A DNA stretch of 64,000 nt, from IMG/VR virus record IMGVR_UViG_3300020477_001008, positions 62,001 through 126,000 of that record, one strand, 5' to 3'. The notes below the pieces were generated by a model. It searched no databases. It worked only from the letters and a program-made list of their open reading frames with translations, and was not told the origin of the DNA. Positions 16,953 through 35,831 of this stretch are shown here, piece by piece. Numbering within the stretch: position 1 is the stretch's first letter; every line of letters begins with the position of its first letter. Position numbers and translations under genes: made by a program. The DNA comes from a virus.

Positions 16953-19865
16953 TTACTTTATTTCCTTTATAATTGAAAAATCATTTTGCATTTGATTGAA
17001 TAATTTTAGTTCTTCACCACTTTTAAGATCTGGTACATAAACAGCTTTTCCTTCTGTTTTTTCATCATCGTTTTTAACTTCTGAATTCTTATCTCTTTTT
17101 TCATTTATTATTTCAGCTTCACTTTTATTATCTTTAGATAACATAATTTCTTCAATATCTATATTGCCATCTCCATTTAAATCTTTATCTTTATGTATAT
17201 CTTTTAAACTGATTGCACCGTTATGGACTCCTCCTAAAACATTTGCGTCATACATTCTTTTAATATCTTCAAATGTATCAGGATTATCAAAATTGTGTAT
17301 ATCGTCTCTAATAAATTTTTGAGACCAGTCTACCATTTTTTCATCTTCTTTTAAAGATTCATAAGTTATAGTACCGTGAACGTCAGATGGATTCCACCAC
17401 ACTTGTTGTTTTTCTTTTACTGATTCTTTCATAGATTTTATTTTTTGATCCATTTTATCATCGTATGGTTTAGTTGGTGCAGTTTTTTCTTCATATTTGT
17501 ATTTGCCTGCGCCGGTAAATTCACTTGAATCATAACTTACTTGACCTTCATTAGTAGCTGTACTATCTTGCGGCTTTGCAATATCACCGTCAACTAGTAA
17601 AGATAAATCTGTAATTGCATCTCTAATCATATGTAGTGTTTGAGTAAACATTCCATTAGAAAATTTATGTTCAATTTTCCATACTCTATATACAGCAGTT
17701 AAAAATTCATTGTTTCTTTGTGCTAGTGTTTTTTGGTAACCAGTAGATGCATCTTTTTCACTTGGTATTAAAGAACAAAACAATACACAGTTTTCTTTTT
17801 TATAATCAGCCATATGAGGAAATTTTTCACCATCATCTTTATTTGAATAAGCTGGATGATCTAACCAATATGGGTCACCAATAATATCCATTGTTACTCT
17901 AACCATTTCTGCAGAACCAACTTTAGCATTTCGTAAAAGTGTATTAAACCCAGAACCGTCAGCTGACGATACTCCTATCATACCTTCATTAGTTGGATCA
18001 ACATATCTTTCATAAAATTGTGTTGGAAATTGTGTTCCACCTTGATCTTCTTTTAGTGCTTCTTCATATAATTCATCTTTAAGATTTTCTGCTAATATAT
18101 TTTGTGCACCAAGTTTAGATACATTTTTATTTTTTGATTGAGGTAATCCCCAGCCGTACCGTGGATGATATGTATATGTGTCTAAAGCATTTAGTTTTGG
18201 TGATTTTTTAGGATTTAGAATAGGATGATAATGGTCAGCTTCTTGACCTCCTAGTTCTTCGTATTGCTTATATGTTTGATTGTAGTCTTCGACTAAGGCG
18301 TTATATGCCTCTAGTGTATTATTGTCAGGTTCTATTGTACCACTATCAAACATCTCTCTTATATTTTGTAGATTTCTTTGTTGCATTACCTTGATCCAAT
18401 ATTTTTCACCAACTGATAATTTTTCAGCATCTTCACTATCACTACTAGTTGCTTTTAAAAATTCTTTAGTTCCATCGCTGGAATTTTCTTTTACTTTATT
18501 AATAAGTTCTTGGCTTGTATTAGCTGTATTAATAACAGTTTCAAAAGCTTCTGAATACTTGTTAAACAAACCAACCATTGTGTCTAAACCATAAACATAT
18601 TGATAGTTGTAATTAATATTAAAGTTAAGTACATCTAAATTCATACCAGTATTGAAATAATCATATCTCTTAACTAATATTTTTCTATCAATCATACTTT
18701 TAACACGTTTTTCGGTATATGCTTTTTTCTTATCAAATTCTTTTCTAACAGCCGCCGTTACTGATATCATTGGCATAACTGTTATTGTGTAAATAAATTT
18801 TCTTGCATAATCTCTTCGAAGAGAATCATAATTAAGTAATTCATTATGCGTAGATATTGTAAACAAATATTTTTCAATTTTTAATTTTTCAATTTCTTTT
18901 TTTGCCCACGTCATATCCATCATTTGGTCTCTAGTTGCTTGTATTAATTTCTGCATTACTTTATTACGAGACATAAATCTTTCTAGTACTTCTTTAATGG
19001 TTGTGTTTCTTTCAATCTCAGCAAACATCTTACCTTCAAAATCTAGTGTTCTACTATCTTTTTTATCATCAGCGGCAATTTCTGAGTCATTAATTTTGCT
19101 CACTGGTGCTTCTGTATGTTCTAATGAATCTATTCTAAATACATATTGATCTAATATTGCTTTAGTTGAACCAAGTTTGTGTCTTTCTTGTTTATTAACT
19201 TCTTTTTGAAAAGAATCTAGAAAGTCTCCCATTGTGTCAATATTTTCTAATGTAGTTTTTTGTACTAATTGGTGATCATCTGCATTGTTTAAATCACCAG
19301 CTCTAATTCCTTCAATTTGGTAATTTGCAGATCCAACATCAACTTGATAGACAATATTTTTAATATAAACACAATATAATCTTCTAGTATTTGGTATTTC
19401 AACTTCTAGTTCTCCGTCTGCTTTTCTTCCTTTTAAAATTACTTGTAAAAAGAAAGGATGTGAATAATGATTTTTAATTCCTAATACTGCCGCGGCTTTG
19501 TAAATGTTTTCAATTAAACTAACACCTAATGGTTGTACAACACTCATTCTCCATTTTGTTGAAAATCCTGTGTCAGTTACTTTGTTAGGAGATGTAATAC
19601 CTTCAATATATAAATCTGTCATTGTTGTAATAGTTGACGCTGATTCAATTAAAGTTACTACTCCACCTTTAAACATTTTAGAGTTAATTGAATTTATATC
19701 AGGTGCATTTGCAAGTTTACGTTCAGCTCTCTGCCAATTAGCTGTGTCTGTAGTGTTAGCTAAATGCAAAGAAACATCATATGATATTCTTTCATAATCG
19801 TGTACGGGATTTTCTTTAAAAACATCACGTTCGATAACGTTCCAAAGTTTTAAACTGTCAGCCAT
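16953..19865 (-). CDS. Large baseplate-associated structural protein (possible gp27-like hub)
   Basis: A 970-aa protein lying between gp53 and gp5 with 1-nt gaps, so it is a baseplate component by context. In T4 the hub partner of gp5 is gp27 (391 aa); this enlarged protein is a candidate functional equivalent, but I see no decisive motif. The N-terminal 220 residues look beta-rich (VVQPLGVSLIENI, FFLQVILKG), the middle is helical and charged, and the C-terminus carries a perfect EF-hand-type loop, DLNGDGNIDIEE, at about residue 900. Calcium binding is inferred from that loop. Confidence 0.6.
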   Translation of the reverse strand: MADSLKLWNVIERDVFKENPVHDYERISYDVSLHLANTTDTANWQRAERKLANAPDINSINSKMFKGGVVTLIESASTITTMTDLYIEGITSPNKVTDTGFSTKWRMSVVQPLGVSLIENIYKAAAVLGIKNHYSHPFFLQVILKGRKADGELEVEIPNTRRLYCVYIKNIVYQVDVGSANYQIEGIRAGDLNNADDHQLVQKTTLENIDTMGDFLDSFQKEVNKQERHKLGSTKAILDQYVFRIDSLEHTEAPVSKINDSEIAADDKKDSRTLDFEGKMFAEIERNTTIKEVLERFMSRNKVMQKLIQATRDQMMDMTWAKKEIEKLKIEKYLFTISTHNELLNYDSLRRDYARKFIYTITVMPMISVTAAVRKEFDKKKAYTEKRVKSMIDRKILVKRYDYFNTGMNLDVLNFNINYNYQYVYGLDTMVGLFNKYSEAFETVINTANTSQELINKVKENSSDGTKEFLKATSSDSEDAEKLSVGEKYWIKVMQQRNLQNIREMFDSGTIEPDNNTLEAYNALVEDYNQTYKQYEELGGQEADHYHPILNPKKSPKLNALDTYTYHPRYGWGLPQSKNKNVSKLGAQNILAENLKDELYEEALKEDQGGTQFPTQFYERYVDPTNEGMIGVSSADGSGFNTLLRNAKVGSAEMVRVTMDIIGDPYWLDHPAYSNKDDGEKFPHMADYKKENCVLFCSLIPSEKDASTGYQKTLAQRNNEFLTAVYRVWKIEHKFSNGMFTQTLHMIRDAITDLSLLVDGDIAKPQDSTATNEGQVSYDSSEFTGAGKYKYEEKTAPTKPYDDKMDQKIKSMKESVKEKQQVWWNPSDVHGTITYESLKEDEKMVDWSQKFIRDDIHNFDNPDTFEDIKRMYDANVLGGVHNGAISLKDIHKDKDLNGDGNIDIEEIMLSKDNKSEAEIINEKRDKNSEVKNDDEKTEGKAVYVPDLKSGEELKLFNQMQNDFSIIKEIK

Positions 19866-20929: not shown

Positions 20930-20937
20930 TATTTATA
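20930..20937 (-). promoter_or_regulatory. T4-type late promoter, 5 nt from ATG
   Basis: The minus strand reads TATAAATA, then 5 nt, then the ATG of the gp48/54-like gene. With a late start site normally 5-7 nt past the element, transcription would begin at or next to the AUG. Confidence 0.85.
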
Positions 20938-24696: not shown

Positions 24697-24773
24697 AGGC
24701 GATTAGCTCAGTTGGTTAGAGCATTCCGTTGATAACGGAAAGGTCGTAAGTTCGAGTCTTACATCGCCTACCA
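24697..24773 (+). tRNA. tRNA-Ile (GAU anticodon)
   Basis: A complete cloverleaf: acceptor AGGCGAT pairs with ATCGCCT, D-arm GCTC/GAGC, anticodon stem TTCCG/CGGAA with loop TTGATAA (anticodon GAT), T-arm GTAAG/CTTAC with loop TTCGAGT, discriminator A and an encoded CCA. It lies 4 nt after gp46. It is the only tRNA I found in the window and would read AUC/AUU codons. Confidence 0.97.
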
Positions 24774-24784: not shown

Positions 24785-24811
24785 CTATAAAAATTGAGGA
24801 TAATATATAGT

Positions 24812-25624
24812 ATGTTAATTAGAAAAAAATATCAATTACCTACAATGTGGAAATTCAACAAGAAGTTTGACATTAAAAAACTTCAAGAAGAAGCTTTAAA
24901 ACTAGGTAACAGCTACGGTGACGTAATGGAAACTAACAAAGCATTATGTTCAAATAATCACGAATTAGTTATGAGTGTTTACAAACACTTTAAACAAATT
25001 AATTTAACTGAATTTGATCCTACTGCTCCTGCACCAACTGTTGAAAGTTGTGAAGCACTTGGTAAAACTGCTGGTACAGGTGATGAGTCAATTGGTAGAA
25101 TTGCAAAGTATAAATTGAAATCAAGACGTGGTGAATCTTTAGATCCAGCACTTAATGAACACAATTATAATACTCCAACAGAGCAATATAAAGGAACTTA
25201 CTTTCAAGAAGTTGTAAATTCATTTAATGCTGATGCTATTAGAGTTAGACTTGTTAGATTAGATCCAGGTAAAACACTTACACCACATATTGATTATGAT
25301 CCAACTTATGCAGTAAGAGTTATTGTTCCTATCTTTGCAGAGAAAGAAGCAACAAATTATTTTTGGCGTAAAGGTAAAGAAGAAGCATATCATTTAGAAC
25401 CAGATGGGTCAGCATACTTTTTAAATATTGGTTTCACTCATACTGTAGTTAATTCAGGTAGCACACCTAGAATTAGTTTAATGTTTAGTTTAAAAAATCA
25501 ATCAGACTTGCAAGAAATCCCAGATGCTGATTGGAATGAAAATAATAATATGGGTGAGCTACGTATTAATAATAATTATAAAACACAAAAGGCACTAGCA
25601 GATGCCCAACAATTGGCAGTTTAA
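24812..25624 (+). CDS. Aspartyl/asparaginyl beta-hydroxylase-like 2OG-Fe(II) oxygenase
   Basis: A 270-aa protein with the iron facial triad in a cupin-like core: LTPHIDYDPTYAVRVIVPIF supplies His-x-Asp and GFTHTVVNSGSTPRISLMFS supplies the distal His and the 2-oxoglutarate-binding Arg. Start: the ATG at 24812 is used; an upstream in-frame TTG exists but has no better signal. Substrate unknown. It overlaps the following SET-domain gene by 23 nt, so the two are coupled. Confidence 0.8.
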   Translation: MLIRKKYQLPTMWKFNKKFDIKKLQEEALKLGNSYGDVMETNKALCSNNHELVMSVYKHFKQINLTEFDPTAPAPTVESCEALGKTAGTGDESIGRIAKYKLKSRRGESLDPALNEHNYNTPTEQYKGTYFQEVVNSFNADAIRVRLVRLDPGKTLTPHIDYDPTYAVRVIVPIFAEKEATNYFWRKGKEEAYHLEPDGSAYFLNIGFTHTVVNSGSTPRISLMFSLKNQSDLQEIPDADWNENNNMGELRINNNYKTQKALADAQQLAV

Positions 25625-25949
25625 AACTGAAATAAAAGAATCTGAAATACACGGCCACGGCAGGTTTGCTATGGAAGATATTCCTAAAGGGAAAACAGTT
25701 GTAACATTAGAAGGTCCTGCTTTACCAAAAGAACAAGCACCAAGAAAAATGCCAGTAAGTGATACACACAATATGAATTGCGAGGATACATTTGTTAATC
25801 ACAATGATGATGCCAACCTTACATTAGTAGATACTAAAATTACTATAACTGTTGAAAAAACATTTGTGTCTACAAAGAAGATTAAAAAAGGTGCTGAACT
25901 TACAATGAACTACGAAGAATTTGCAAGAGGCAAAAAGTTTTTATTCTAA
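25602..25949 (+). CDS. Minimal SET-domain protein (putative protein lysine methyltransferase)
   Basis: A 115-aa protein with the core SET elements: IHGHGRFAMEDIPKGKTV near the N-terminus, FVNHNDDANL corresponding to the NHxxxxN motif that binds S-adenosylmethionine, and IKKGAELTMNYEEF corresponding to the ELTxxY catalytic strand. No post-SET cysteine cluster is present and the insert between the halves is very short. If active it would methylate Lys on a host or phage protein. It is translationally coupled to the upstream hydroxylase and its TAATG overlaps the next gene. Confidence 0.75.
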   Translation: MPNNWQFKTEIKESEIHGHGRFAMEDIPKGKTVVTLEGPALPKEQAPRKMPVSDTHNMNCEDTFVNHNDDANLTLVDTKITITVEKTFVSTKKIKKGAELTMNYEEFARGKKFLF

Positions 25950-26059
25950 TGAAAGATCCATTAAGCTATAAAATAAAAAAGTGGATAGAGTGGCTACTAA
26001 TTCAACAAGTTCCAGCAATACTAGTAATATTATTTCTAATTTACTGGCTTATATTTTAG
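25949..26059 (+). CDS. 36-aa single-TM miniprotein
   Basis: An ORF starting MKDPLSYKIKKWIEWLL with a hydrophobic C-terminal half (PAILVILFLIYWLIF). Its ATG shares bases with the stop codon of the SET gene (TAATG), typical of a coupled gene. It converges with the minus-strand gene ending at 26049. Function unknown. Confidence 0.55.
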   Translation: MKDPLSYKIKKWIEWLLIQQVPAILVILFLIYWLIF

Positions 26060-26189
26060 TTTTACTTTCAATAAATTTTGCGTAATATTTCGTCAAAGGA
26101 TTATTTGGCTGATAACCAAATGGCTCTGACTGTGATTTTTTACGTTTTTTTGAAAGTTTTTTACGGGTTCTCTTTTTCTGACTCTGCAT
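26049..26189 (-). CDS. 46-aa very basic small protein
   Basis: A short ORF starting MQSQKKRTRKKLSKKRKK then SEPFGYQPNNPLTKYYAKFIE. It overlaps the end of the oxygenase gene at 26161 by 29 nt in another frame. It would be the last gene of the minus-strand accessory operon. The Lys/Arg run suggests nucleic-acid or membrane association. Whether it is translated is uncertain. Confidence 0.4.
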   Translation of the reverse strand: MQSQKKRTRKKLSKKRKKSQSEPFGYQPNNPLTKYYAKFIESKTKI

Positions 26190-26865
26190 CAAAATTATAT
26201 TTATCTTTCCAGCCCATATTTGCAAAAGGCCAGCCAGTAATTACAGCACGACATCCTGGTTTAGCATTTCTAACAGGGTTAACAAAGTGAGCAGATCCTA
26301 CTCTAAATAATACACAAGAGTTTCTTTTTGGTTTTATTGCTAAAGGTCCTGCAAGGTAAGGTTGTGTTTCTAGTTTTTCTTTAAACTGTTCCCAGTTTCC
26401 TCTTTCTTCTGGGTATGTATCAAAATGATCCATTAACATAATTTCATTAGGAAATACTAGTTCACCACCTTCTTCTGTAGTTAGATAATGTACAAAAACA
26501 AAGTCACCATAAATGTCTCTTCTTTCAGTATGTACGTTGTATATGCTTTGTGGGTTAAAAGTTTTTGTAGTAAATTGTAATACATTTTTAGGATTTATAT
26601 CTTGTATTAGTATTGGCTTATATACTTCTTCGAGAACTTCATTTAGTTTTGTAATGATTTGTACAACAAGTTTACTATTTTCGTGTATATTATATTTGAT
26701 ATGATTATAGTTGTAATAAGATTTACTTATTATATGTGGTTGTTCGTTACCATCTAATTCTTTTGTGTCTGAATTTTCTATATTTTTTAAAACGTCATCA
26801 ATTAATTCTTCTTCAACAAAATTTTCAGTATACCAGACTTCGTTTATGATTCTTTCTTCCCACAT
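26161..26865 (-). CDS. 2OG-Fe(II) oxygenase (prolyl-hydroxylase type), paralogue A
   Basis: A 234-aa protein aligned along its length with the gene at 28120. The core reads YNVHTERRDIYGDFVFVHYL, then GGELVFPN and AHFVNPVRNAKPGCRAVITG, giving a first His with an acidic partner, a distal His and an Arg for 2-oxoglutarate. The first acidic ligand appears to be Glu (HTE) rather than the usual Asp. It follows SufD without a gap in the accessory operon. The substrate is unknown. Confidence 0.78.
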   Translation of the reverse strand: MWEERIINEVWYTENFVEEELIDDVLKNIENSDTKELDGNEQPHIISKSYYNYNHIKYNIHENSKLVVQIITKLNEVLEEVYKPILIQDINPKNVLQFTTKTFNPQSIYNVHTERRDIYGDFVFVHYLTTEEGGELVFPNEIMLMDHFDTYPEERGNWEQFKEKLETQPYLAGPLAIKPKRNSCVLFRVGSAHFVNPVRNAKPGCRAVITGWPFANMGWKDKYNFDAESEKENP

Positions 26866-27444
26866 CTAAATATGTTCCTGTGTTCTTATATGAGCGAATG
26901 CTTCTACTAATACTTCAATGGCTTCATCTTCTGTATATCCTCTGCTTTGCAAATAAAACAAATGATCTTCATCTAATGCTCCTATTGTGCAACCGTGTGT
27001 ACAAATAACATCATCATTGTTAATATCTAATTCTGGTTTTGCAAAAGCATCTGATTCATTATCTAATAAAATGTTTTTGTTTAACATATGACTTTCGCAT
27101 TTTACTACATCTTTTGGTACAGTAATTTTTCCTTCAAAAGAACTTATACCTTTTTTATTAACAAATCTAAAATCTTGATTACATTTTGATTTACTGCCTT
27201 TATGTACAACATTAGTAATTAAATTAGTTTTCTTTTTTGTATTTTTAAAAAAACCATAAAGTTCACAAGAAGAATTTTCGCCTAGCTCAACATTAATTTT
27301 TGTATCGCTATCTGCTTTGCCTTTAGCTTCAAAAAATAAACAAGCTTTTGCGTTTGGTTTTATTTTAAAATTTAAATTATTGATATCAGTTATATTGATT
27401 TTTGTTTCTAATTCTTTATCAATAATATAATTATTTTCTATCAT
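26866..27444 (-). CDS. sufD: SufD/SufB-family Fe-S assembly protein, truncated
   Basis: A 192-aa protein matching the C-terminal core of SufB/SufD: the beta-helix part (KINVELGENSSCELYGFF, SKCNQDFRFVNKKGISSFEG) and the family-defining end KPELDINNDDVICTHGCTIG, then LDEDHLFYLQSRGYTEDEA. Host SufD is over 400 aa, so the N-terminal half is missing. Start: the ATG at 27444 is used (AAGGG upstream); the longer frame starts with TTG. It overlaps the end of SufC by 14 nt. It likely partners SufC in [Fe-S] cluster assembly; no SufB, SufS, SufE or SufA gene is in the window. Confidence 0.85.
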   Translation of the reverse strand: MIENNYIIDKELETKINITDINNLNFKIKPNAKACLFFEAKGKADSDTKINVELGENSSCELYGFFKNTKKKTNLITNVVHKGSKSKCNQDFRFVNKKGISSFEGKITVPKDVVKCESHMLNKNILLDNESDAFAKPELDINNDDVICTHGCTIGALDEDHLFYLQSRGYTEDEAIEVLVEAFAHIRTQEHI

Positions 27445-28120
27445 TATTAAACCCTTGCTCATCTATGGTATCAAGTAATGTTACATCACCAGTTCTGTTT
27501 ATTTTGCCATCTTGCAAAATATGTACATAAGTTGGGTTCAAGCTTCTTAATACAGATGAATTATGACTAATAACAATCCATCCAAACTTATCTTTGTTTT
27601 CAGTAATTAATTCTTTAACAATTTTTAATGCATCTACATCAAGTCCTGTATCGAGTTCATCAAGTATTACAAGTTTAGGATTAATATGTAACAGTTGTAA
27701 TATTTCGTTTTTCTTTTTCTCTCCACCTGATGCACCATCATTAAAATGTCTTTGAGCCCATCCGGATTGTAATTTTAATCTTTCAATGTCACTTAAATAT
27801 TTTTCATATTGTTTAGAAAATTGACTTACTAATTTATAATTTGTTATACCTGGTATACTAGGAGGAGATTGAAAGCTCATAAACAAACCAGAATTTGCTC
27901 TTTCAGTTACATCTAAATCAATTAATTCATTGTTGTTTAGTTTAATTGAACCAGTTGTTGCATATTGTTCTTTACCAACTATTGCATTTGCTAAACTTGA
28001 TTTGCCTGATCCATTAGGTCCTATTAAGGCGTGAAGTTCCCCTTGCTTAACATTTAAGTTAACGCCTTTAATGATTTCGTTATCATCTACTTTTACTTTT
28101 ATATCTTTTAATTCTAACAT
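27431..28120 (-). CDS. sufC: SufC-like ABC ATPase for Fe-S cluster assembly
   Basis: A 229-aa ABC ATPase: Walker A GPNGSGKSS (about residues 35-43), the SufC-typical Q-loop region FMSFQSPPSIPGITN, signature SGGEKKKNEILQLL, Walker B LVILDELDTGLD and switch His in ISHNS. The SIPGxTN and GGEKKKNEI stretches separate SufC from transporter ATPases. Length is near normal (about 250 aa). The ATG at 28120 overlaps the upstream stop (TAATG). SufC binds SufD/SufB and powers the scaffold, so the adjacent SufD supports the assignment. Confidence 0.92.
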   Translation of the reverse strand: MLELKDIKVKVDDNEIIKGVNLNVKQGELHALIGPNGSGKSSLANAIVGKEQYATTGSIKLNNNELIDLDVTERANSGLFMSFQSPPSIPGITNYKLVSQFSKQYEKYLSDIERLKLQSGWAQRHFNDGASGGEKKKNEILQLLHINPKLVILDELDTGLDVDALKIVKELITENKDKFGWIVISHNSSVLRSLNPTYVHILQDGKINRTGDVTLLDTIDEQGFNNDRK

Positions 28121-28887
28121 TAATGACAATCTTCCGGCTTTGGTTCTTGATGTTTTTCAGCATCAAAGTAATAGTTAAAATTACAATGCTGATCTAACCC
28201 ATCTATAAGTTCTTTGGTAGCATAAGGCCAACCTGTTACTACTGGTCTTGCATTTTCTTTTACTTCTCCTTCAAGAGATGTAACGTAATGTGCTGATCCA
28301 ATAGCAAATATTACACATTTATTATATTTTGGTTTTATAGTAATATCGTTTAGATAACGCATTGGAAAACCTTTTGACTCAACTAGTTTTATATTTTCTT
28401 CCCAACGATTTTTTTGTTTTGGATATTTTTCTAAATGTTTTTCACAACCTTCTTTACTCGGAAATATTAAATGTCCACCTTTTTCATCTGAAAGGAAATG
28501 CATAAAAGCATAAGGTCCATATTTGTTAATTGGTTCTGTATGTAAATCATACCAACCTCTTTTGCTAAAGCTTTTTGTAAACAACTGTAACCCTTCTAAG
28601 TTTGTTTTAGGTACAGGTGTTTCTGTTAATGGCTGTAGCACTTCATTTATTCTATCCATATATAAATCAATTAATATTTTATTTTTATGTATATCTGTTC
28701 TATGTACAGTATAATTGTAAGTTGTAGCATTAACCCCAGAGTTTCTAAAGTTTGGTAGTATTGCTTCTCCTGGCTCTAGTTCAGTTGTTCCTGCTTGAAA
28801 CATTTCTCTTTTAATATGTTCAACAGTTTCTTCATTAAGAAAATCATCTATTTCCCAAATTTCGTTTTTAACTATTTCGTTCCACAT
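28120..28887 (-). CDS. 2OG-Fe(II) oxygenase (prolyl-hydroxylase type), paralogue B
   Basis: A 255-aa paralogue of the 26161 protein: DLHTEPINKYGPYAFMHFL, GGHLIFPSKEG and SAHYVTSLEGEVKENARPVV give the same His-x-acid, His and Arg layout. Both share the ending PVVTGWPYA/AVITGWPFA. It sits between the B12-type radical SAM gene and SufC with overlapping start/stop codons at each side, so it is part of the same coupled operon. The substrate is unknown. Confidence 0.8.
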   Translation of the reverse strand: MWNEIVKNEIWEIDDFLNEETVEHIKREMFQAGTTELEPGEAILPNFRNSGVNATTYNYTVHRTDIHKNKILIDLYMDRINEVLQPLTETPVPKTNLEGLQLFTKSFSKRGWYDLHTEPINKYGPYAFMHFLSDEKGGHLIFPSKEGCEKHLEKYPKQKNRWEENIKLVESKGFPMRYLNDITIKPKYNKCVIFAIGSAHYVTSLEGEVKENARPVVTGWPYATKELIDGLDQHCNFNYYFDAEKHQEPKPEDCH

Positions 28888-30668
28888 TATCTTTCGTGTC
28901 CTATTGCTATTACATTTGCATTTTTCATTCTTGCATCAGTACCATACATACTCATATCAAACTCTTTTTTCCATTCGTTAACGTCAGATTTAACAACATC
29001 TAAAGGATATATTGTGGACATCTCGTCAACTATACTTTCTTTATGATGCCAAATTTGATATATTTCATCAGAACGTAAACATCTACTAAAATAAAGATAT
29101 GTAGCCAAATCTTGTACTTCAGTTCTTTCTTCATCACAAAATATTTTTGTAATGATATCTCTATTTTTTCCAACCAACCATTTCATAAGTGGCATATTAT
29201 CTAAGTTATTATAAAACATTTTTATTTGATCTGCAACCGATGTACCACGTTCCACTAGGTATTTAATAGAATTTGATAGGGTTCTTGCATTATAAAAGTT
29301 ATGGTAAAACCACCAATAATCAAACATTTTCAATAATTCTGGTAAATCATATGATGAACATTGGTGCATAATTTCTATTTCTTCAAACTCATATGTACTT
29401 CTTTCATCTCTAAATTCTGGTTCGTTGTGTAATTTTTTATATCCAAGTCCACTAAAACTATAAGGAAATGCAAGTATTTTAGATTTAACTTTATATTCTT
29501 TTCTAAATTGTTTTGTGTATATTTCTGTATTTGGTACAAGATTTAAAAAATAAGAACGCATAAAATCAATACCAAGTTCATAATCTTTGTTTAAACTGTA
29601 TAACCAACTGTCTGCTGTTTCACCTGGTAATGCAATAATCATTTCACTTGTAACAGGCAATCCTTTTGATTTAAAACTGTCAATTAACGGCAATAACTTA
29701 TCATTATTAATGTTTGCTCTGTTAATAACTTTTAATGTTTGTTTGGCGTGTGTTTGAAAACTTACTTTTAGGTTACGTTGGTCTGCATCTAAATTGTTAT
29801 GTATAATATCTATAATTTCTGGCAACCACTTACTGCCATTCTTTGCAAGTCCTGAGTATGATATCTTAGGATTATTACCTGTTGCTTCTTTGTTTGCTTT
29901 CATCTTCTTTACAACATCTAAATCTCTAGGTAGCATACCAAAGTTAGCATCAAGTATTTCAAGCTCTGCTATGTTTGTGTGCTTGTATAAGAAGTCTAAT
30001 TGTGCATTAACAGGATCCATATCAAACTTTGTAACTTTAGATCTTGCTTGTCCACCCCAATCACAAAATGCACACTTAAAAGGACAACCACGATTAGTTT
30101 CAAAAGATGCTTTAACTCTTTTTTCTTTTGCAAGTATAGAATCAAATGTACCGTCTAAGTATGGTGTAGGCATTTCATAAGTTTCAATTTGATATAATTT
30201 ACGTCCTACTTCAACATTATTCCAACCAATACCAAATCCTCCATCGTGAGTTTGCATTGGTGCATCAATATTTTTTAAAAAATTGCTAACTAATTTTTCT
30301 CCTGGACCTACCCAAAATATATCTATGTAAGGATGTTCTTTTGCAAACTGTTCTGCAAGTTCTGGGTCTTCAGGTATATTAGGTCCACCATACATAGCAA
30401 TACCGTTTGGATTTACATCTTTGTAATGACTCATTAATTGATCGTTGTATGCTTGATTCCAAACATAACAAGTCAAACCAAATATATCAATGTTTTTAAA
30501 TTGTTCTGTGTATTCTTCTACAGGCTTAAATTTATATAATGGTTCGTTAAATGTGTAGTTTTCTTTTATTTGTGGAATTTTATTACAATAGCTTATGAGA
30601 CAAGCCGCGGCATATGGTAGCCACGTTTCGTGAATTACAGATATGGTTCCTAATTGTACTGTTTTCAT
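28887..30668 (-). CDS. B12-binding-type radical SAM enzyme
   Basis: A 593-aa protein. The N-terminal about 150 residues look like a cobalamin-binding-like Rossmann domain (DIFGLTCYVWN, GIAMYGGPNIPEDPE, IFWVGPGEK), followed by a radical SAM domain with RGCPFKCAFCDWGG (CxxxCxxC, near residue 195) and barrel strands such as SFQTHAKQTLKVI and SEMIIALPGET. The B12 site lacks an obvious DxHxxG motif, so cobalamin use is uncertain. Start: the ATG at 30668 is used; the longer frame opens with TTG. Such enzymes do radical methylations or rearrangements. It needs Fe-S clusters, and sufC/sufD follow in the operon. Confidence 0.82.
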   Translation of the reverse strand: MKTVQLGTISVIHETWLPYAAACLISYCNKIPQIKENYTFNEPLYKFKPVEEYTEQFKNIDIFGLTCYVWNQAYNDQLMSHYKDVNPNGIAMYGGPNIPEDPELAEQFAKEHPYIDIFWVGPGEKLVSNFLKNIDAPMQTHDGGFGIGWNNVEVGRKLYQIETYEMPTPYLDGTFDSILAKEKRVKASFETNRGCPFKCAFCDWGGQARSKVTKFDMDPVNAQLDFLYKHTNIAELEILDANFGMLPRDLDVVKKMKANKEATGNNPKISYSGLAKNGSKWLPEIIDIIHNNLDADQRNLKVSFQTHAKQTLKVINRANINNDKLLPLIDSFKSKGLPVTSEMIIALPGETADSWLYSLNKDYELGIDFMRSYFLNLVPNTEIYTKQFRKEYKVKSKILAFPYSFSGLGYKKLHNEPEFRDERSTYEFEEIEIMHQCSSYDLPELLKMFDYWWFYHNFYNARTLSNSIKYLVERGTSVADQIKMFYNNLDNMPLMKWLVGKNRDIITKIFCDEERTEVQDLATYLYFSRCLRSDEIYQIWHHKESIVDEMSTIYPLDVVKSDVNEWKKEFDMSMYGTDARMKNANVIAIGHER

Positions 30669-30727
30669 AATGCTATTGTCCAAACCTAGATTGTTTTACA
30701 CGACAATTATAGTGTTATTTAGTTTGT

Positions 30728-31459
30728 CTATTGATATTTTTTTGCTTGTTTTAGTTTGCTTAAAACGTCACGCCAACTCACTCCGTGAGCAATATAAGGA
30801 TAACTTTGTTCTCTGTTGAAAGGTAGTATGCCGTATTTGACACGTTGAGTTCCTGGTGCCTGATGAATAATTTCGTTGTCGTTTATTTCAACTAGTTTTT
30901 TCATAACAGTATCACTAACTCCAAAATAAACTGTGTTTCTTGTACAAGCTGACAATGGTATATGTTTATCTATTGTTGGTACATCATTTAAAAGAACAAA
31001 AGGATGACCTTGATGTGTTAAAATTACAGGAATATTTTTTTTGAATTTATGAATATGTTCAGCCAGGTTGCCTGTATTGTGATCCCATATTAAATCCCAA
31101 TCTTCATCTATATGATCATCATAGTTTATTGGACCATTAACAAACGTATATTCTCCATTAAATTCAAAAAATTCTTTCAGCCAGTCTTGCTTTTCATTAA
31201 CTTGTTCTTCGGTAGTTCCAAATTCTAAAATATCATAATTTACTGCTTCAACGTCTGATGAATTACAACTTTGTATAGCATAAAAGAAATCACAATTAGT
31301 AAAACCTCCAGCTATTAAAATTTTTCTTGGCTTTAATAATTTAAAATAATGAAATAACAGTTCGTAATCAGATAATGAAGTTATTTTTGTGGCTGTGTCG
31401 TTCACAAATATCTTATGATAACGTATATTGGTTTCGTAGTTTTTAAATGGGTATTTCAT
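30728..31459 (-). CDS. Putative Rossmann-fold enzyme (methyltransferase-like), unknown
   Basis: A 243-aa protein. KPRKILIAGGFTNCDFFYAI (about residues 44-63) resembles the glycine-rich strand-loop of a Rossmann or SAM-dependent methyltransferase fold, and EDWDLIWDHNTGN could be the acidic strand end. I do not recognise it firmly. The ATG at 31459 is chosen because a late element ends 8 nt before it; the longer frame would start inside the previous gene. It lies between the two radical SAM genes, so a shared pathway is likely. Confidence 0.6.
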   Translation of the reverse strand: MKYPFKNYETNIRYHKIFVNDTATKITSLSDYELLFHYFKLLKPRKILIAGGFTNCDFFYAIQSCNSSDVEAVNYDILEFGTTEEQVNEKQDWLKEFFEFNGEYTFVNGPINYDDHIDEDWDLIWDHNTGNLAEHIHKFKKNIPVILTHQGHPFVLLNDVPTIDKHIPLSACTRNTVYFGVSDTVMKKLVEINDNEIIHQAPGTQRVKYGILPFNREQSYPYIAHGVSWRDVLSKLKQAKKYQ

Positions 31460-31467
31460 TATATACG

Positions 31468-31475
31468 TATTTATT
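31468..31475 (-). promoter_or_regulatory. Late-type promoter element inside accessory operon
   Basis: The minus strand reads AATAAATA directly after the stop codon of the 31476 gene and 8 nt before the ATG at 31459. It would give an internal late transcript for the B12 radical SAM/Suf half of the operon. Confidence 0.65.
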
Positions 31476-32609
31476 TTATGTTTGAATATGTAAGTTGGGA
31501 TCACCACTTTGTTTTTGTATTACAGTATTAGACGACTTCCATTTACCATTTTCACAACTTCTCCAACATCTACGTAACTCACGTTTTTTTGTAGTCCACG
31601 CATCAGTAATTTCTTTCCAAGCTGGCTGGTGCCAAATTTCCATTAATGAACGTGTATTAAAGTTGTTAAAATCGTTTTTGTAATGTTCTACTAGCCATTC
31701 TTCTTTTCTTGCTAATTGATGTATTGATAAATCATATTCCTCTGACAAATAACAACAAGGCCATATTCTACCTTTAGGATTCAAATACATTCTATGGTCG
31801 TCAATACCTCTGCAAGAAATACAAGTTTCTTCTTTTACTTTTAGTTGTTTAAAAACTTCTTTTTTAATCTCTTCAGTTTTCTTTGTTTTTATTTCTTCAA
31901 CTTCTTTAACTCTTTCAATTCTTTTTTCAGGTTTTTTCTTTGCAACTTTTACAGCTTCTTGATAATCTTCTTCTGGTGGTGGCTCTCTAGTTGTAACTTC
32001 AGCTGAAAAATGTGCAAATCCTAATTTTCTTGATAAGGCTTCTGCTTCTTCTACTTGGTGTTCGTTGTGATCAAATATTAACATTTTCCACTCAGCTAAT
32101 CCGCCAGCATTAATATAAGCTTCAACGTTTTGAATTAATTTGTCCCAATCAACTTTTCTTCTATATAAATGATTAGTATCTTTTAATCCATCAATAGAGA
32201 AAGTTATACGTGTTGATCCTATATCCCAATTTGATGATCCTTTGCGTTTAGATGTTTCTCCTAGATTACGCCAAAAGTCAGTTGTACGTCCTCCACCATT
32301 AGTATGAACTCCAACGTTCTTGAAATTTTCTGATGCATATTGATATAAAAATTCAAATTCAGGGTGCATTAAAGAATCGCCATAATTTCCACAGTACCAA
32401 ACATTGACTTTATCAGCTCCTTGAAATAAATCAAACTGTTCTTTCATTTTTTCTAATAAATGAGTAGGTAAATGTTCTAAAGCTAGATCTTCTATAACGT
32501 CACTTGTACCTGGCTTATGTCTAGAGCAATACGGACACCCTGCGTTACAAAAGGTCGTAGGCTCTACCTCAATCGTATGTATATGCTGTGGTTTAATTAA
32601 TGAAAACAT
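31476..32609 (-). CDS. Radical SAM enzyme with C-terminal Cys region
   Basis: A 377-aa radical SAM protein: EPTTFCNAGCPYCSRHKPG gives CxxxCxxC near residue 21, WYCGNYGDSLMHPEF fits the SAM-binding second strand, and TRITFSIDGLKDTNHLYRR the next. A Lys/Glu-rich insert (about residues 225-270) precedes a Cys region (CISCRG, PCCYLSEEY, CWRSC) resembling a SPASM/twitch auxiliary cluster site. SPASM enzymes often modify peptides; whether this one does is unknown. It starts 10 nt after the upstream gene. Confidence 0.82.
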   Translation of the reverse strand: MFSLIKPQHIHTIEVEPTTFCNAGCPYCSRHKPGTSDVIEDLALEHLPTHLLEKMKEQFDLFQGADKVNVWYCGNYGDSLMHPEFEFLYQYASENFKNVGVHTNGGGRTTDFWRNLGETSKRKGSSNWDIGSTRITFSIDGLKDTNHLYRRKVDWDKLIQNVEAYINAGGLAEWKMLIFDHNEHQVEEAEALSRKLGFAHFSAEVTTREPPPEEDYQEAVKVAKKKPEKRIERVKEVEEIKTKKTEEIKKEVFKQLKVKEETCISCRGIDDHRMYLNPKGRIWPCCYLSEEYDLSIHQLARKEEWLVEHYKNDFNNFNTRSLMEIWHQPAWKEITDAWTTKKRELRRCWRSCENGKWKSSNTVIQKQSGDPNLHIQT

Positions 32610-32619
32610 TTGTTAGTAT

Positions 32620-33312
32620 TTAAGCAAATTGGATATTAAATGAAATCGGCCAATGCCCGTAGCTAGACTCTTCTTTTTCACATTTAATCACGTCAATGTT
32701 GCTAATTTTAATATTACTGTTCTGTGTTGTTAATATTTTATCTAAACTGGCATTGTAATTATTTTTATTAGTAAATGTTCCAAAGTCTTTTAAATGATTT
32801 TTTATATTTCTTTCTTTTAAACTTAAAACTTTTTGTTGTTCAATTTCGCTATCTTCAAAATGTAAATCTGTTAAAATTAATGTATTATCATCAATCATTG
32901 AAAGTAATTCTTTACCTTGTTCATAATAAATTTTATAAGGCACTCTGCCAGAATCAAAGCTATTAATCATTTCACTTTTTTGTAGTATTGGTTCTTCAGG
33001 ATCAGGATAGCAAATTGAACTATTAATAATTTTGTATTTTCCTAATTTTAATGTTTGCCAATATTGTCCTTGGGTTTCATCTGTTAGATTTTTAATATGG
33101 TAATTGAATTGCCCAACTTCTACATCTAATTTATTATTTTTATCAATAATACACAGTCCACGTTTTCCATAATTGTTAGTGTAATGATAATTGTAATCTT
33201 TATCTCTTACGTCTTTAGTAAAACGTTCTTTCCATCGTTGTAAAAAATAAATGTCACTATTGAATTGTAGTGCATCGACCTCCCCATTCCAACTAAACAT
33301 TAAAGCTTTCAT
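32620..33312 (-). CDS. Unknown protein, weakly endonuclease/exonuclease/phosphatase-like
   Basis: A 230-aa protein. Scattered features recall the EEP fold: LILTDLHFEDSE in the position of the GDFN motif, NYNASLDKILT, and a C-terminal GHWPISFNIQF in the position of the SDHxPV motif. Key catalytic residues look altered, so the assignment is tentative. Its ATG overlaps the stop of the upstream GNAT gene (TAATG), which fixes the start at 33312. Confidence 0.4.
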   Translation of the reverse strand: MKALMFSWNGEVDALQFNSDIYFLQRWKERFTKDVRDKDYNYHYTNNYGKRGLCIIDKNNKLDVEVGQFNYHIKNLTDETQGQYWQTLKLGKYKIINSSICYPDPEEPILQKSEMINSFDSGRVPYKIYYEQGKELLSMIDDNTLILTDLHFEDSEIEQQKVLSLKERNIKNHLKDFGTFTNKNNYNASLDKILTTQNSNIKISNIDVIKCEKEESSYGHWPISFNIQFA

Positions 33313-33938
33313 TACCAATATTTACTTTGCCTGTAATAAAGTACTCTTGTAGGATCAACATTTTCTCCATTATGGCTATGTTCTATAATTGCGTTAGTAG
33401 GTTTCCATACGTATGATTCGTCAATGTAATAACTGTAAATGTATTGTAGCATATCTGATTTAGGAGAATCGTGAAACAATAGTTCTTTTTCTAAAGTTAA
33501 TTTTTTATAGTCTTCGTCATTGAACCAACTATTATCTCCTACAATATAAGTTCTTTTGTGTTGAAATAATTTATTAATTGCTTTGTCGTTTACATCGTGG
33601 GTCCAATAGTAATGTTTGAATCCATTTTCTTTTGCCCAAGCAATTTGATGTTTCATCATTTTAAATCCATAGCGACCGTGTCTATGTTTTTTAAGTATAT
33701 GATATCTACATTTTCTAATTGATTCTGGTGTACCTGTAATAAAACTTCTTTCAGCATAACTTATACTAGCAACTTCATCATTAACTAATGCTATCCAAAG
33801 ACTACTTTTTTCATCTAAACTATCTAAATCAAATTTCTTTTGAGTATATGTTCCGGCACTACCTTCTGCTTTAGCTTTTTCAAGAAATTGTTCTACTAAT
33901 TCTTTATGTGATGAATTATATTGTATTATACTTTCCAT
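33312..33938 (-). CDS. GNAT-family N-acetyltransferase
   Basis: A 208-aa protein with a GNAT-like core: LWIALVNDEVASISYAERSF as the central strands, then ILKKHRHGRYGFKMMKHQIA, where H-R-H-G-R-Y-G matches the acetyl-CoA pyrophosphate loop (Q/RxxGxG/A), and HYYWTHDVNDKAINKLFQ for the late helix. The substrate is not evident. It overlaps the sulfotransferase gene end by 13 nt. Confidence 0.65.
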   Translation of the reverse strand: MESIIQYNSSHKELVEQFLEKAKAEGSAGTYTQKKFDLDSLDEKSSLWIALVNDEVASISYAERSFITGTPESIRKCRYHILKKHRHGRYGFKMMKHQIAWAKENGFKHYYWTHDVNDKAINKLFQHKRTYIVGDNSWFNDEDYKKLTLEKELLFHDSPKSDMLQYIYSYYIDESYVWKPTNAIIEHSHNGENVDPTRVLYYRQSKYW

Positions 33939-34579
33939 TCTCCTACCCAATCTTTAAACCATTTTAAAAATTCATCTTTATTTTCTATTATATTAAGTTT
34001 TTCATCGTTGCTTTTTGGATTTTGTCGTATCATTATTTCACCATTGTTAGGAAAGTCTGGTAACTCTTCAAACCAAACAGTACGTTCAATGTTTAATTTA
34101 CTTTCACGTTTTTTTAAATCTTCTATACGCCATACTAAATTATCAAACCATTCTTTTTTATAATTAAATGTTTGCCCTTTTTCTAATCCATTAATGCCAT
34201 TATTCTTTTTCCAATCAGGATACCAATACCATTTAAAAGTTGTCCATCCTATTCCGTAACTTATAAATTGCCCAAGTAAATCTTTTCTTTTAACTAAAAC
34301 AATAGGTTTTTGATAAACAAAGTCCCAAATATATTTGCTCATATCAGGACCTGAGTGCATTTTAAATATATAATCAGGTGGTAGTTCTCTTATTCTTTTT
34401 TGTGTTTCGTTATCTATACCTTCAATATCGCCAAGGTCAGGCCAATCAGGATAGTCTGGCTCAAAGTACTCAAATAATCTGTGTTCAGAAAGTGCAATAC
34501 ATTGAGGATATTCATTTGCATACCATTTAGTAACAAAGCTTGTTCCACTTCTTGGAGTACCTATAATAATTTTATGCAT
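33926..34579 (-). CDS. Sulfotransferase-family protein
   Basis: A 217-aa protein with a 5'-phosphosulfate-binding loop at the very N-terminus, IIIGTPRSGTSFVTKW, and a region PIVLVKRKDLLGQFISYG matching the 3'-phosphate-binding R...S motif of PAPS-dependent sulfotransferases. It overlaps the APS kinase gene by 8 nt, so donor synthesis and transfer are coupled. The acceptor may be a lipid, glycan or small molecule; the neighbouring desaturase makes a lipid conceivable. Confidence 0.78.
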   Translation of the reverse strand: MHKIIIGTPRSGTSFVTKWYANEYPQCIALSEHRLFEYFEPDYPDWPDLGDIEGIDNETQKRIRELPPDYIFKMHSGPDMSKYIWDFVYQKPIVLVKRKDLLGQFISYGIGWTTFKWYWYPDWKKNNGINGLEKGQTFNYKKEWFDNLVWRIEDLKKRESKLNIERTVWFEELPDFPNNGEIMIRQNPKSNDEKLNIIENKDEFLKWFKDWVGEWKV

Positions 34580-35009
34580 TGTTTCCTATCGTGTTTAATG
34601 TACCAACAATGGTATCAATCCACCCTTCAGCATTTTTTTCTTTAATAATAATATCTGCATCGTCACCATTAGCAACTATTGGTTTCTCAAACATTTCATT
34701 TGTATCTTCAAAGTCACTTGATTCAATAGTGTCTAACCATATTGTAAAATCAGCATTAAAAATTTTTCTTGTTTCAACTGTAGGACAAATAAAATCTGCA
34801 ACAACAATATGTCCTTCGTTTACTTTTCTATCAGCAAGTTGTTTCATACGTTCTGCTTGTTTTATTCTTCCTTCTTTACTATAATCAAAATTTTGATCAG
34901 TCTTTCTAACAACATCAGCATTAAGCCATTTTGCTTTTAATACTGGTACTAATTTTGAAGCTAAAGTAGTTTTGCCAGCACCTGACAAACCCATTATTAA
35001 TATTTTCAT
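34572..35009 (-). CDS. APS kinase-like protein (PAPS synthesis)
   Basis: A 145-aa P-loop kinase: MGLSGAGKTTLA, then WLNADVVRKT matching the LDGDNVR motif of adenylylsulfate kinase, and VVADFICPTVETRK for the lid strand. CysC is about 200 aa, so this is shortened at the C-terminal side. It would convert APS to PAPS, the donor for the coupled sulfotransferase. ATG and the upstream TGA overlap. Confidence 0.78.
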   Translation of the reverse strand: MKILIMGLSGAGKTTLASKLVPVLKAKWLNADVVRKTDQNFDYSKEGRIKQAERMKQLADRKVNEGHIVVADFICPTVETRKIFNADFTIWLDTIESSDFEDTNEMFEKPIVANGDDADIIIKEKNAEGWIDTIVGTLNTIGNNA

Positions 35010-35758
35010 TTTTCTTTCTTTGATAATAACTTTATAAATTGATATCCTATATCAAGCTCCCACCATTTATATTTGAACGTTGCTTCTTGTGGTTTCCAAT
35101 GGTGATTATTATGCCAGCCTTCTCCCCACATTAATATTCCTAGTATAGGAATGTTTGTTGAGTTATCATCTGTATCGTGATTTCTATAACCAAACGTATG
35201 AGTTAATGTGTTAATAAATGATCCAGCATTCCATAATATCATTGCTGGAAATAGATAAGCGGCAACTAATAACATTGGGTCAATAAGATACCATATTATT
35301 GCTATTACTAAATGAATAGCAAAATACCAATTATGCAATATTAAATGAAACTTTGATCTAATTAATCTTATAACATATCTTGGGTTAGGTGTTTCAAACA
35401 TACTCAGCCATTGCACTCTAAAAAATCCTAAATGTTCAGGAGAGTGCGGATCACCTTCTTTATCAGTATGGTGATGATGTTCTTTATGTATTGCTACCCA
35501 ACCTATACTTGATCCTGTTAAACCATAAAAGCCACATAATGTTCCAAAGTATTCAAACCATTTAGGTGCCTTCCAGCTGTTATGACTTAACAATCTATGA
35601 TATGTCATAGTCATACCAAAACATCCAGTAACAAAATAAACTGCAAATCCAATTAACCAATGATGTAATGATCCATACATAATCATTGGAATAATTGATA
35701 AGTGAGTTATAATTTGTACTAAAAGAAGCAAGTATTGATCTCTAGTATATTTTTTCAT
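35006..35758 (-). CDS. Membrane fatty-acid desaturase
   Basis: A 250-aa membrane protein with the three histidine boxes of acyl-CoA/acyl-lipid delta-9-type desaturases: HRLLSH, HKEHHHH and EGWHNNHHW, with hydrophobic segments between them (ITHLSIIPMIMYG, WLIGFAVYFVTG, VIAIIWYLIDPMLLVAAYLF). The di-iron centre inserts a cis double bond in an acyl chain. Start: the ATG at 35758 is used; the longer frame starts with TTG. It is the first gene of the accessory operon behind a late-type element. Confidence 0.92.
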   Translation of the reverse strand: MKKYTRDQYLLLLVQIITHLSIIPMIMYGSLHHWLIGFAVYFVTGCFGMTMTYHRLLSHNSWKAPKWFEYFGTLCGFYGLTGSSIGWVAIHKEHHHHTDKEGDPHSPEHLGFFRVQWLSMFETPNPRYVIRLIRSKFHLILHNWYFAIHLVIAIIWYLIDPMLLVAAYLFPAMILWNAGSFINTLTHTFGYRNHDTDDNSTNIPILGILMWGEGWHNNHHWKPQEATFKYKWWELDIGYQFIKLLSKKEK

Positions 35759-35791
35759 TATTATTCCCAATATTTTAGTCTATTATAATGA

Positions 35792-35799
35792 TATTTATT
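35792..35799 (-). promoter_or_regulatory. Late-type promoter for the accessory operon
   Basis: The minus strand reads AATAAATA, 33 nt before the desaturase ATG, and forms a divergent pair with the plus-strand element at 35824. It suggests that the desaturase-to-Suf operon is expressed late. Confidence 0.65.
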
Positions 35800-35823
35800 G
35801 TATTTTACAACCGCAGATGTTAC

Positions 35824-35831
35824 AATAAATA
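35824..35831 (+). promoter_or_regulatory. Late-type promoter (divergent)
   Basis: AATAAATA, 19 nt before the ATG at 35851, with AAAGGAAC between them as a ribosome-binding site. Confidence 0.65.

Follow-up and report, generated by a model that had tools for sequence, protein, structure and literature searches.

We analysed a 64,000-nucleotide stretch of viral DNA, hereafter called the window, which comprises bases 62001-126000 of the 242,646-base virus record IMGVR_UViG_3300020477_001008 (the whole record is designated G000). On its minus strand lie twelve contiguous genes, running from 35758 to 26161, which encode in this order a fatty-acid-desaturase-superfamily enzyme (Desat), an APS-kinase-like protein (APSK), a sulfotransferase, a GNAT N-acyltransferase, an 'EEP-like' protein, a radical S-adenosylmethionine (SAM) enzyme with a SPASM domain, a 'Rossmann' protein (Ross), a cobalamin-type radical SAM enzyme, a 2-oxoglutarate (2OG) Fe(II) oxygenase (OG1), SufC, a short SufD and a second 2OG oxygenase (OG2). 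Related viral loci share a core of enzymes around the cobalamin radical SAM gene, and several other genes of the operon are variable cargo.

The gp23 encoded at window positions 52769-53947 is about 70% identical to that of Pseudomonas PA5oct-like T4-type jumbo phages, and the host of this large uncultured virus is probably a marine bacterium. The named phage collection held no relatives of the window at the DNA level and no close cobalamin radical SAM enzyme or OG1 at the protein level; a diverged query gave only two matches, at 23%, among named phages. Two viral scans returned 34 loci, the window and one contig from a metagenome-assembled genome (MAG) included; clustering at 90% identity grouped them into 18 lineages. 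Related loci carry L-numbers, and G003 is the 328,149-base record behind L003. Gene families were assigned from Pfam, PHROGs, NCBIfam and PDB profile searches or from predicted folds, and were counted per lineage within the fetched flanks of at most 10 kb on each side. One locus, L021 (PBYS01000106.1), is a contig binned as a Puniceicoccaceae MAG; with 97% identity in the cobalamin radical SAM enzyme, it is phage DNA sitting in a bacterial bin and a close relative of the window phage. The two halves of the operon stand apart in this contig, through either rearrangement or misassembly.

The twelve-gene operon and its enzymes

With starts supported by homologues, successive genes between Desat and OG2 are separated by -4, -8, -13, -1, 10, 16, 59, -1, -1, -14 and 0 nt; all starts but one (59 nt) thus lie at most 16 nt from the preceding stop. 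Spacing by itself is weak evidence for an operon, since 60% of adjacent genes on the same strand of this genome are within 16 nt of each other (median gap over the whole record, 3 nt); given this distribution, the binomial probability of 10 tight junctions out of 11 is about 0.03. Conserved synteny, described below, is stronger evidence. Purifying selection acts on all twelve genes (dN/dS 0.05-0.38 in comparison with L021 and/or L001), and the operon from the desaturase to OG2 is real. An earlier note on this DNA had counted thirteen coupled genes. Twelve of them stood; the thirteenth, a small basic open reading frame (ORF) of 58 aa (26049..26225, minus strand), overlaps the end of OG2 and is a doubtful gene, with no family match and a single partner, K/R-rich and of low complexity, in L007.

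The core gene of the module encodes the cobalamin-type radical SAM enzyme (28887..30668, minus strand; 593-598 aa). Besides Pfam PF04055 (38.6 bits), it matched the PDB profiles of TokK (7kdx, E 9e-55) and CysS (9n1b, E 4e-44). The TokK alignment, between residues 16-393 of the phage protein and 22-401 of TokK, spans both the cobalamin-type domain and the radical SAM domain with its CxxxCxxC motif, of which the cysteines C200, C204 and C207 are invariant in nine phage sequences. Although the enzyme resembles TokK, CysS and KedN5 in aligning over both domains and in keeping this motif, it differs from them in falling far under the KedN5 cut-off, in its unmatched C-terminus and in belonging to a separate clade, the phage enzymes being monophyletic and distinct from the cellular relatives examined. 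Judged from sequence, the phage protein is predicted to work like KedN5 but is not a member of the KedN5 family. More distant relatives in Clostridia MAGs (L023-L047) frequently occur as tandem repeats of two to five copies, several of them beside a protein of about 820 aa.

OG1 (28120..28887, minus strand; 255 aa) matched phrog_61 (E 1.9e-6) and carries an HxE...H triad whose residues H116, E118 and H200 are invariant. Its predicted structure (pLDDT 85.6) has the double-stranded beta-helix fold expected of such oxygenases and resembles prolyl 4-hydroxylases (P4H), with VIA Z scores of 14.6 to OGFOD1 (root-mean-square deviation, rmsd, 3.4 over 176 residues) and 14.0 to an algal P4H. The fold also matches PolD, PiuC and a BesD homologue, among which PolD and the BesD homologue are small-molecule enzymes. 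OG2 (26161..26865, minus strand; 234 aa) is a paralogue of OG1, as indicated by PF13640 (32.5 bits, cut-off 27) and by an alignment in which HxE...H is kept in both proteins. Two plus-strand genes face the operon. One encodes AspHyd, an aspartyl/asparaginyl-hydroxylase-type 2OG oxygenase (24794..25624; PF05118, 25.7 bits, cut-off 22.6) that belongs to the conserved module, and the other a SET-domain protein (25602..25949; PF00856, 37 bits, cut-off 22.4). The sole tRNA gene of the window, tRNA-Ile (gat), lies at 24697-24773, just upstream of the AspHyd gene.

The first gene of the operon, Desat (35006..35758, minus strand; 250 aa), belongs to the fatty-acid-desaturase superfamily, with a PF00487 score of 60 bits (cut-off 29.7) and three His boxes (HRLLSH, HKEHH, HNNHH); against the NCBIfam DesA family it reached 97.8 bits, the cut-off being 400. 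APSK (34572..35009, minus strand; 145 aa) is a C-terminally shortened P-loop kinase. It passed the gathering score of Pfam APS_kinase (PF01583, 40.7 bits, cut-off 21.1, residues 3-83) and matched the kinase family phrog_10255 (E 1.3e-26), but does not qualify as a full-length APS kinase (CysC; TIGR00455, 35.6 bits, cut-off 138.7). The adjoining gene (33926..34579, minus strand; 217 aa) encodes a sulfotransferase of the type that uses 3'-phosphoadenosine 5'-phosphosulfate (PAPS). No Pfam family was found for it at E 0.1, and the assignment to PAPS sulfotransferases comes from the 5'-phosphosulfate-binding (PSB) loop, TPRSGTSF, whose core is invariant, and from the fold: the AlphaFold model (pLDDT 77.5) gave VIA Z scores of 10.0 to SULT7A1 (rmsd 4.0 over 175 residues) and 9.6 to TPST1, and nearly all top rows were sulfotransferases.

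The GNAT gene (33312..33938, minus strand; 208 aa, RHGRYG motif) is supported by PF00583 (24.5 bits, cut-off 20.7) and by an alignment of nine sequences. The SPASM radical SAM enzyme (31476..32609, minus strand; 377 aa) scored above the cut-offs of both PF04055 (41.5 bits) and PF13186 (31.5 bits), the SPASM domain being C-terminal. Most identities proposed in the earlier note were thus supported by profile matches or predicted folds; two were not. The 'EEP-like' protein (32620..33312, minus strand; 230 aa), labelled from the motifs TDLHFED and GHWPISF only, matched nothing in Pfam, PHROGs, NCBIfam or the PDB profiles. Ross (30728..31459, minus strand; 243 aa), whose true start is the ATG at 31459 since its homologues begin with MKYPF, had no convincing match in the same collections. 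Homologues of the 'EEP-like' protein were found in L001 and L021 only, and two viral scans for the two proteins gave no additional relatives of either.

An ATAAATA late-type element followed by TATAAT precedes the desaturase gene (35792..35798, minus strand) and is kept in L001, L002, L003, L006, L007 and L021. A second, weak ATAAATA (31468..31474, minus strand), just before the corrected Ross start, is absent from L001 and only approximate in L021. The window has fewer copies of the motif than expected (15 against 51), and 36 of the 44 copies in the whole record are intergenic, though 92% of the record is coding. For ten of these 44 the distance to the following start codon is exactly 6 nt, and for about seven others it is 7-10 nt; those at 20930 and 47318 of the window are examples of such close positions, and a late-type motif also lies 6 nt before sufS. 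In sequence terms, this placement suggests that the phage may make leaderless or near-leaderless late mRNAs. Expression of the operon in late infection, claimed previously from the elements at 35792 and 31468, is plausible for the desaturase promoter and less so for the second, weakly conserved element.

Conserved core and variable cargo

Near the cobalamin radical SAM gene, AspHyd-type and P4H-like 2OG oxygenases were each present in 18 of the 18 lineages, and the desaturase in 17. Three further families were almost as frequent: C5, resembling short-chain dehydrogenases/reductases (SDR; 16 lineages), C4, resembling pyridoxal phosphate (PLP)-dependent aminotransferases (15), and the 2OG-like C6 (14). 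C4 was classed as a PLP enzyme from its motifs and a weak PDB match (3fkd, E 0.043), C5 as SDR-like from a motif only, with no Pfam match, and C6 likewise from a motif only. The core is conserved down to 35-50% identity. A second desaturase cluster, with C6, SDR-like, Grx4 and PLP-like genes, lies elsewhere in the record (G000:C1:3919-7968, L011).

Other families were less frequent, with GNAT and SET in 7/18 lineages each and the sulfotransferase in 5/18. The APS kinase, detected in L021, is missing in L001, and the sulfotransferase is missing in L002-L007; SufC and SufD are present in the operons of L001, L003 and L021. Variable cargo thus comprises the genes for sulfation and those for SPASM, Ross, EEP and Suf proteins. 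The 7 lineages that have GNAT and the 11 that have the C7 family make up the full 18, and the two families seem to replace each other. We considered C7 as a diverged GNAT, and rejected this since hhalign gave a probability of 0.1, with no detectable homology.

The recurrence of the same classes bears on the possibility that the operon is a chance pile-up of separately useful auxiliary genes in a hypervariable region. The cargo does vary among relatives, tight spacing is normal in this genome, and similar islands are known in pelagimyophages (PMC7029224). However, the same enzyme classes surround the cobalamin radical SAM gene in 15-18 of the 18 lineages, often on the same strand and within 3 kb, and identities of 35-50% oppose a single recent transfer. 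For the core this explanation is already contradicted, and overall we regard it as very improbable. The earlier note had named single, scattered occurrence in relatives as the finding that would count against a functional set; such scatter was seen for the cargo (APS kinase, sulfotransferase, SPASM, Ross, EEP and SufCD) but not for the core. With a core conserved in 18 lineages, the locus behaves as a biosynthetic or tailoring cluster, as had been proposed.

Iron-sulfur supply and radical SAM load

SufC (27431..28120, minus strand; 229 aa) is an ATPase with intact Walker A, Walker B and SGGEKK motifs (TIGR01978, 244.9 bits, cut-off 212.8). SufD (26866..27462, minus strand; 192-198 aa) comprises only the C-terminal half of the SufBD core (PF01458, 126 bits, profile positions 63-232). 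With 134.5 bits against the TIGR01981 cut-off of 222 (profile positions 89-260 of 275) it does not qualify as a full-length SufD, and it is equally short in L001, L003 and L021. The bulk of the iron-sulfur (Fe-S) supply genes lies outside the operon, elsewhere in the record. SufB (G000:185003-186280) reached 791.9 bits (cut-off 717), SufS 466.9 bits, just under the cut-off of 475.1, and SufE 68.4 bits for a cut-off of 160. FdxA and Grx4 scored above their cut-offs, and genes for an Nfu-like protein, a SufT-like DUF59 protein, a 2Fe-2S ferredoxin and an FNR-like reductase were also found. The phage set resembles the bacterial SUF system (SufBCDSE) in that SufB and SufC exceed curated cut-offs and SufS and SufE are present, but differs from it in the halved SufD and in the splitting of the suf genes over two or more places. 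By eye, ClpX, ClpP-, ClpS-, DnaK- and Hsp20-like, IF-3-like, ribosomal S21 and L11 genes were noticed at 180-196 kb of the record and at 63472-63948 of the window.

The record contains 23 radical SAM genes. About a dozen form a tandem array (G000:C1:198815-220054, L018 and L019), interspersed with PLP-like and FNR-like genes, and seven of the ten members tested scored above the cut-off for the N-terminal-twitch family N_Twi_rSAM. The independent record G003 holds 22 radical SAM genes together with SufB, C, D, S and E, its SufS reaching 491.5 bits and its SufE exceeding the cut-off; in L003, SufB lies inside the same operon (L003:6732-8198). A 342-kb record with 20 radical SAM genes has no SufB or SufD, so that the Suf set is an optional partner. 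Assembly contamination as the source of the SUF genes is opposed by the Suf set of G003, by a GC content equal to the phage average and by the late-type motif before sufS. SufB and SufC records of named phages were considered as precedents and set aside: most belong to Staphylococcus, Listeria and Enterococcus temperate phages and probably represent flanking host DNA. Likewise, in Microcystis phage MaAM05 (MW495066.1, L083, 258000-273876) a full suf operon ends the 'complete genome', in a bacterial-looking stretch with panB and panC, and is probably host DNA.

The operon's own Fe-S supply, as suggested earlier, was thus found, with SufB, SufS, SufE, carriers, ferredoxins and an FNR-like reductase mostly outside the operon, and it would serve 23 radical SAM enzymes rather than two. 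SufC and the short SufD might instead give general support to host Fe-S metabolism, unrelated to the tailoring enzymes. IscU, A-type carriers, SufE and NifU are indeed known marine viral genes (PMC5332604; PMC8940887), viral SufE and NifU having been described without SufS (PMC8940887), and Fe-S assembly genes occur without the cargo of this operon. But here translational coupling links SufC and SufD to the 2OG genes, SufB joins the operon in L003, and the phage has 23 radical SAM consumers of its own; we consider host support quite unlikely.

Known systems and possible targets

Phages rich in radical SAM genes have been described. The T4-like marine viral genome TARA_ERS488813_N000010 (183 kb) carries 12 radical SAM genes, an A-type carrier, grx, paaD and cas4 (PMC5332604, Nishimura et al. 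2017). It resembles the window phage in being T4-like, with many radical SAM genes and Fe-S carriers; however, the paper reports no SufB/C/D/S and no operon of cobalamin radical SAM, 2OG and desaturase genes. Radical SAM cassettes are also found in the host-recognition islands of pelagimyophages, for which alteration of the host surface against co-infection has been proposed (PMC7029224, Zaragoza-Solas et al. 2020). Such a cluster is expected beside tail-fibre genes between vrlC and gp14; the island in the window is located between gp46/47-like and structural genes. Pelagibacter phage Mosig EXVC030M has, beside its tail fibres, genes for AspHyd, desaturase, PLP enzyme, TauD, GNAT, carbamoyltransferase, sugar aminotransferase and radical SAM. 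A single run thus combines homologues of AspHyd, the desaturase, the PLP enzyme and GNAT, but the 18.5 kb of it examined contain neither the cobalamin radical SAM gene nor Suf genes. Viral fatty-acid desaturases were reportedly described by Roitman and co-workers in 2018 (as cited in PMC11480375); the enzyme studied here is likewise a phage-encoded member of the desaturase superfamily, but stands in a conserved multi-enzyme module. In the literature covered by our search, mostly outside subscription papers, we found neither the operon nor the cobalamin radical SAM core described, and no phage with SufBCDSE. The statement that no such system had been described therefore applies to these three, and not to T4-like phages with multiple radical SAM genes or to radical SAM cassettes, which are known (PMC5332604; PMC7029224).

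Our preferred reading, which we hold tentatively and with a little less than even confidence, is a phage-borne tailoring pathway with a conserved core, swappable cargo, its own Fe-S supply and a surface target. The core, as conservation shows, consists of the phage-clade cobalamin radical SAM enzyme, the P4H-like and AspHyd-type 2OG oxygenases, the desaturase-superfamily enzyme, and the SDR-like and PLP-aminotransferase-like enzymes, the last two encoded elsewhere in the record or in relatives. The cargo in the window would add sulfation (APSK and sulfotransferase), acylation (GNAT), the SPASM radical SAM enzyme, and SufC with the short SufD. Transcribed from the late-type promoter motif before the desaturase gene, presumably late in infection, these enzymes may subject a single substrate, or one class of substrates, to C-methylation, hydroxylation, desaturation or diiron oxidation, acylation and sulfation. 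Together with the phage SufB, SufS and SufE, SufC and SufD would load the ~23 phage radical SAM enzymes with clusters.

As the target we would cautiously name, at somewhat under even confidence, a host surface glycoconjugate or its sugar or lipid precursors, altered late in infection; such a change would shield the cell from rival phages or influence phage release and re-adsorption. An envelope glycoconjugate is favoured because cellular homologues of the cobalamin radical SAM enzyme in SAR116/Rickettsiales contigs have neighbours that, on inspection by eye, resemble sugar and surface-polysaccharide genes, because the Mosig run, with its sugar aminotransferase and carbamoyltransferase, adjoins tail fibres, and because a host-surface change blocking co-infection has been proposed for such islands (PMC7029224).

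Several observations weigh against a surface-tailoring pathway. The cobalamin radical SAM enzyme scores 153.9 bits for a KedN5 family cut-off of 700, and nothing known matches its ~200 C-terminal residues; the APS kinase domain is incomplete; and the operon itself contains no glycosyltransferase or substrate-defining enzyme. Of 27 related records, many being fragments, 3 contained SufBD domains, and SufB, SufC and SufD are present in few relatives, which makes the Suf part dispensable for the core. All records of the operon and its relatives are metagenomic. Finally, the P4H-like fold and the SET and SPASM proteins fit protein targets equally well.

Given the P4H-like fold and the SET and SPASM/twitch proteins, protein modification is the main rival: the operon may act on the virion (tail fibres or capsid) or on host translation by prolyl or aspartyl hydroxylation, SET lysine methylation, C-methylation, acetylation and tyrosine-type sulfation. 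By fold, the enzymes nearest to OG1 are prolyl hydroxylases that act on proteins, among them EF-Tu, ribosomal-protein and viral collagen P4Hs, the AspHyd and SET families adjoin the operon, TPST1 is among the top sulfotransferase folds, the radical SAM array resembles SPASM/twitch peptide maturases, and the Mosig cluster adjoins tail fibres. Folds give no substrate, however, and OG1 also matches PolD, PiuC and the BesD homologue; the PLP-aminotransferase-like, SDR-like and desaturase core genes better suit small molecules or lipids. The only candidate precursor peptide found beside the maturases was the doubtful 58-aa basic ORF, with its one relative, smaller peptides not having been searched systematically. 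We judge protein modification unlikely.

TokK, CysS and KedN5 are C-methyltransferases of natural products, and PLP, SDR, 2OG, GNAT, sulfotransferase and carbamoyltransferase genes form typical tailoring sets; an acyl-carrier-protein-like ORF was also noticed by eye near the L004 cluster (17066-17389). The operon might accordingly make a diffusible natural product, for instance amino-acid-derived, C-methylated, hydroxylated and sulfated, that acts on competitors or the host. But no scaffold builder (nonribosomal peptide synthetase, polyketide synthase, or precursor of a ribosomally synthesised and post-translationally modified peptide) or exporter was recognised, and the lytic cycle of a T4-like phage leaves little time to profit from such a compound; we regard this explanation as improbable. 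Alkaloid-type clusters (APS kinase, sulfotransferase, carbamoyltransferase, desaturase) were considered as a model and set aside, the resemblance being a loose one and no scaffold enzyme having been found.

In its widest form, the tailoring pathway would mean that lytic jumbo phages run a full secondary-metabolism-like pathway of their own, in which the phage-specific cobalamin radical SAM lineage, with desaturase, 2OG oxygenases, PLP and SDR enzymes, leads to a new compound or surface decoration, with a full SUF system feeding about two dozen radical SAM enzymes; this we find doubtful. The recurring core is a defined gene set for expression, and Mosig, isolated on Pelagibacter ubique HTCC1062, offers a reduced version accessible to culture experiments. 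For work on the SufBCD scaffold, the short SufD provides a new natural variant. The reason for the build-up of radical SAM genes in T4-like marine phages, reported and unexplained, would become testable. If the pathway is as we read it, some uncultured phages would keep a multi-step oxidative and radical tailoring chemistry with a dedicated cofactor supply, beyond single auxiliary genes.

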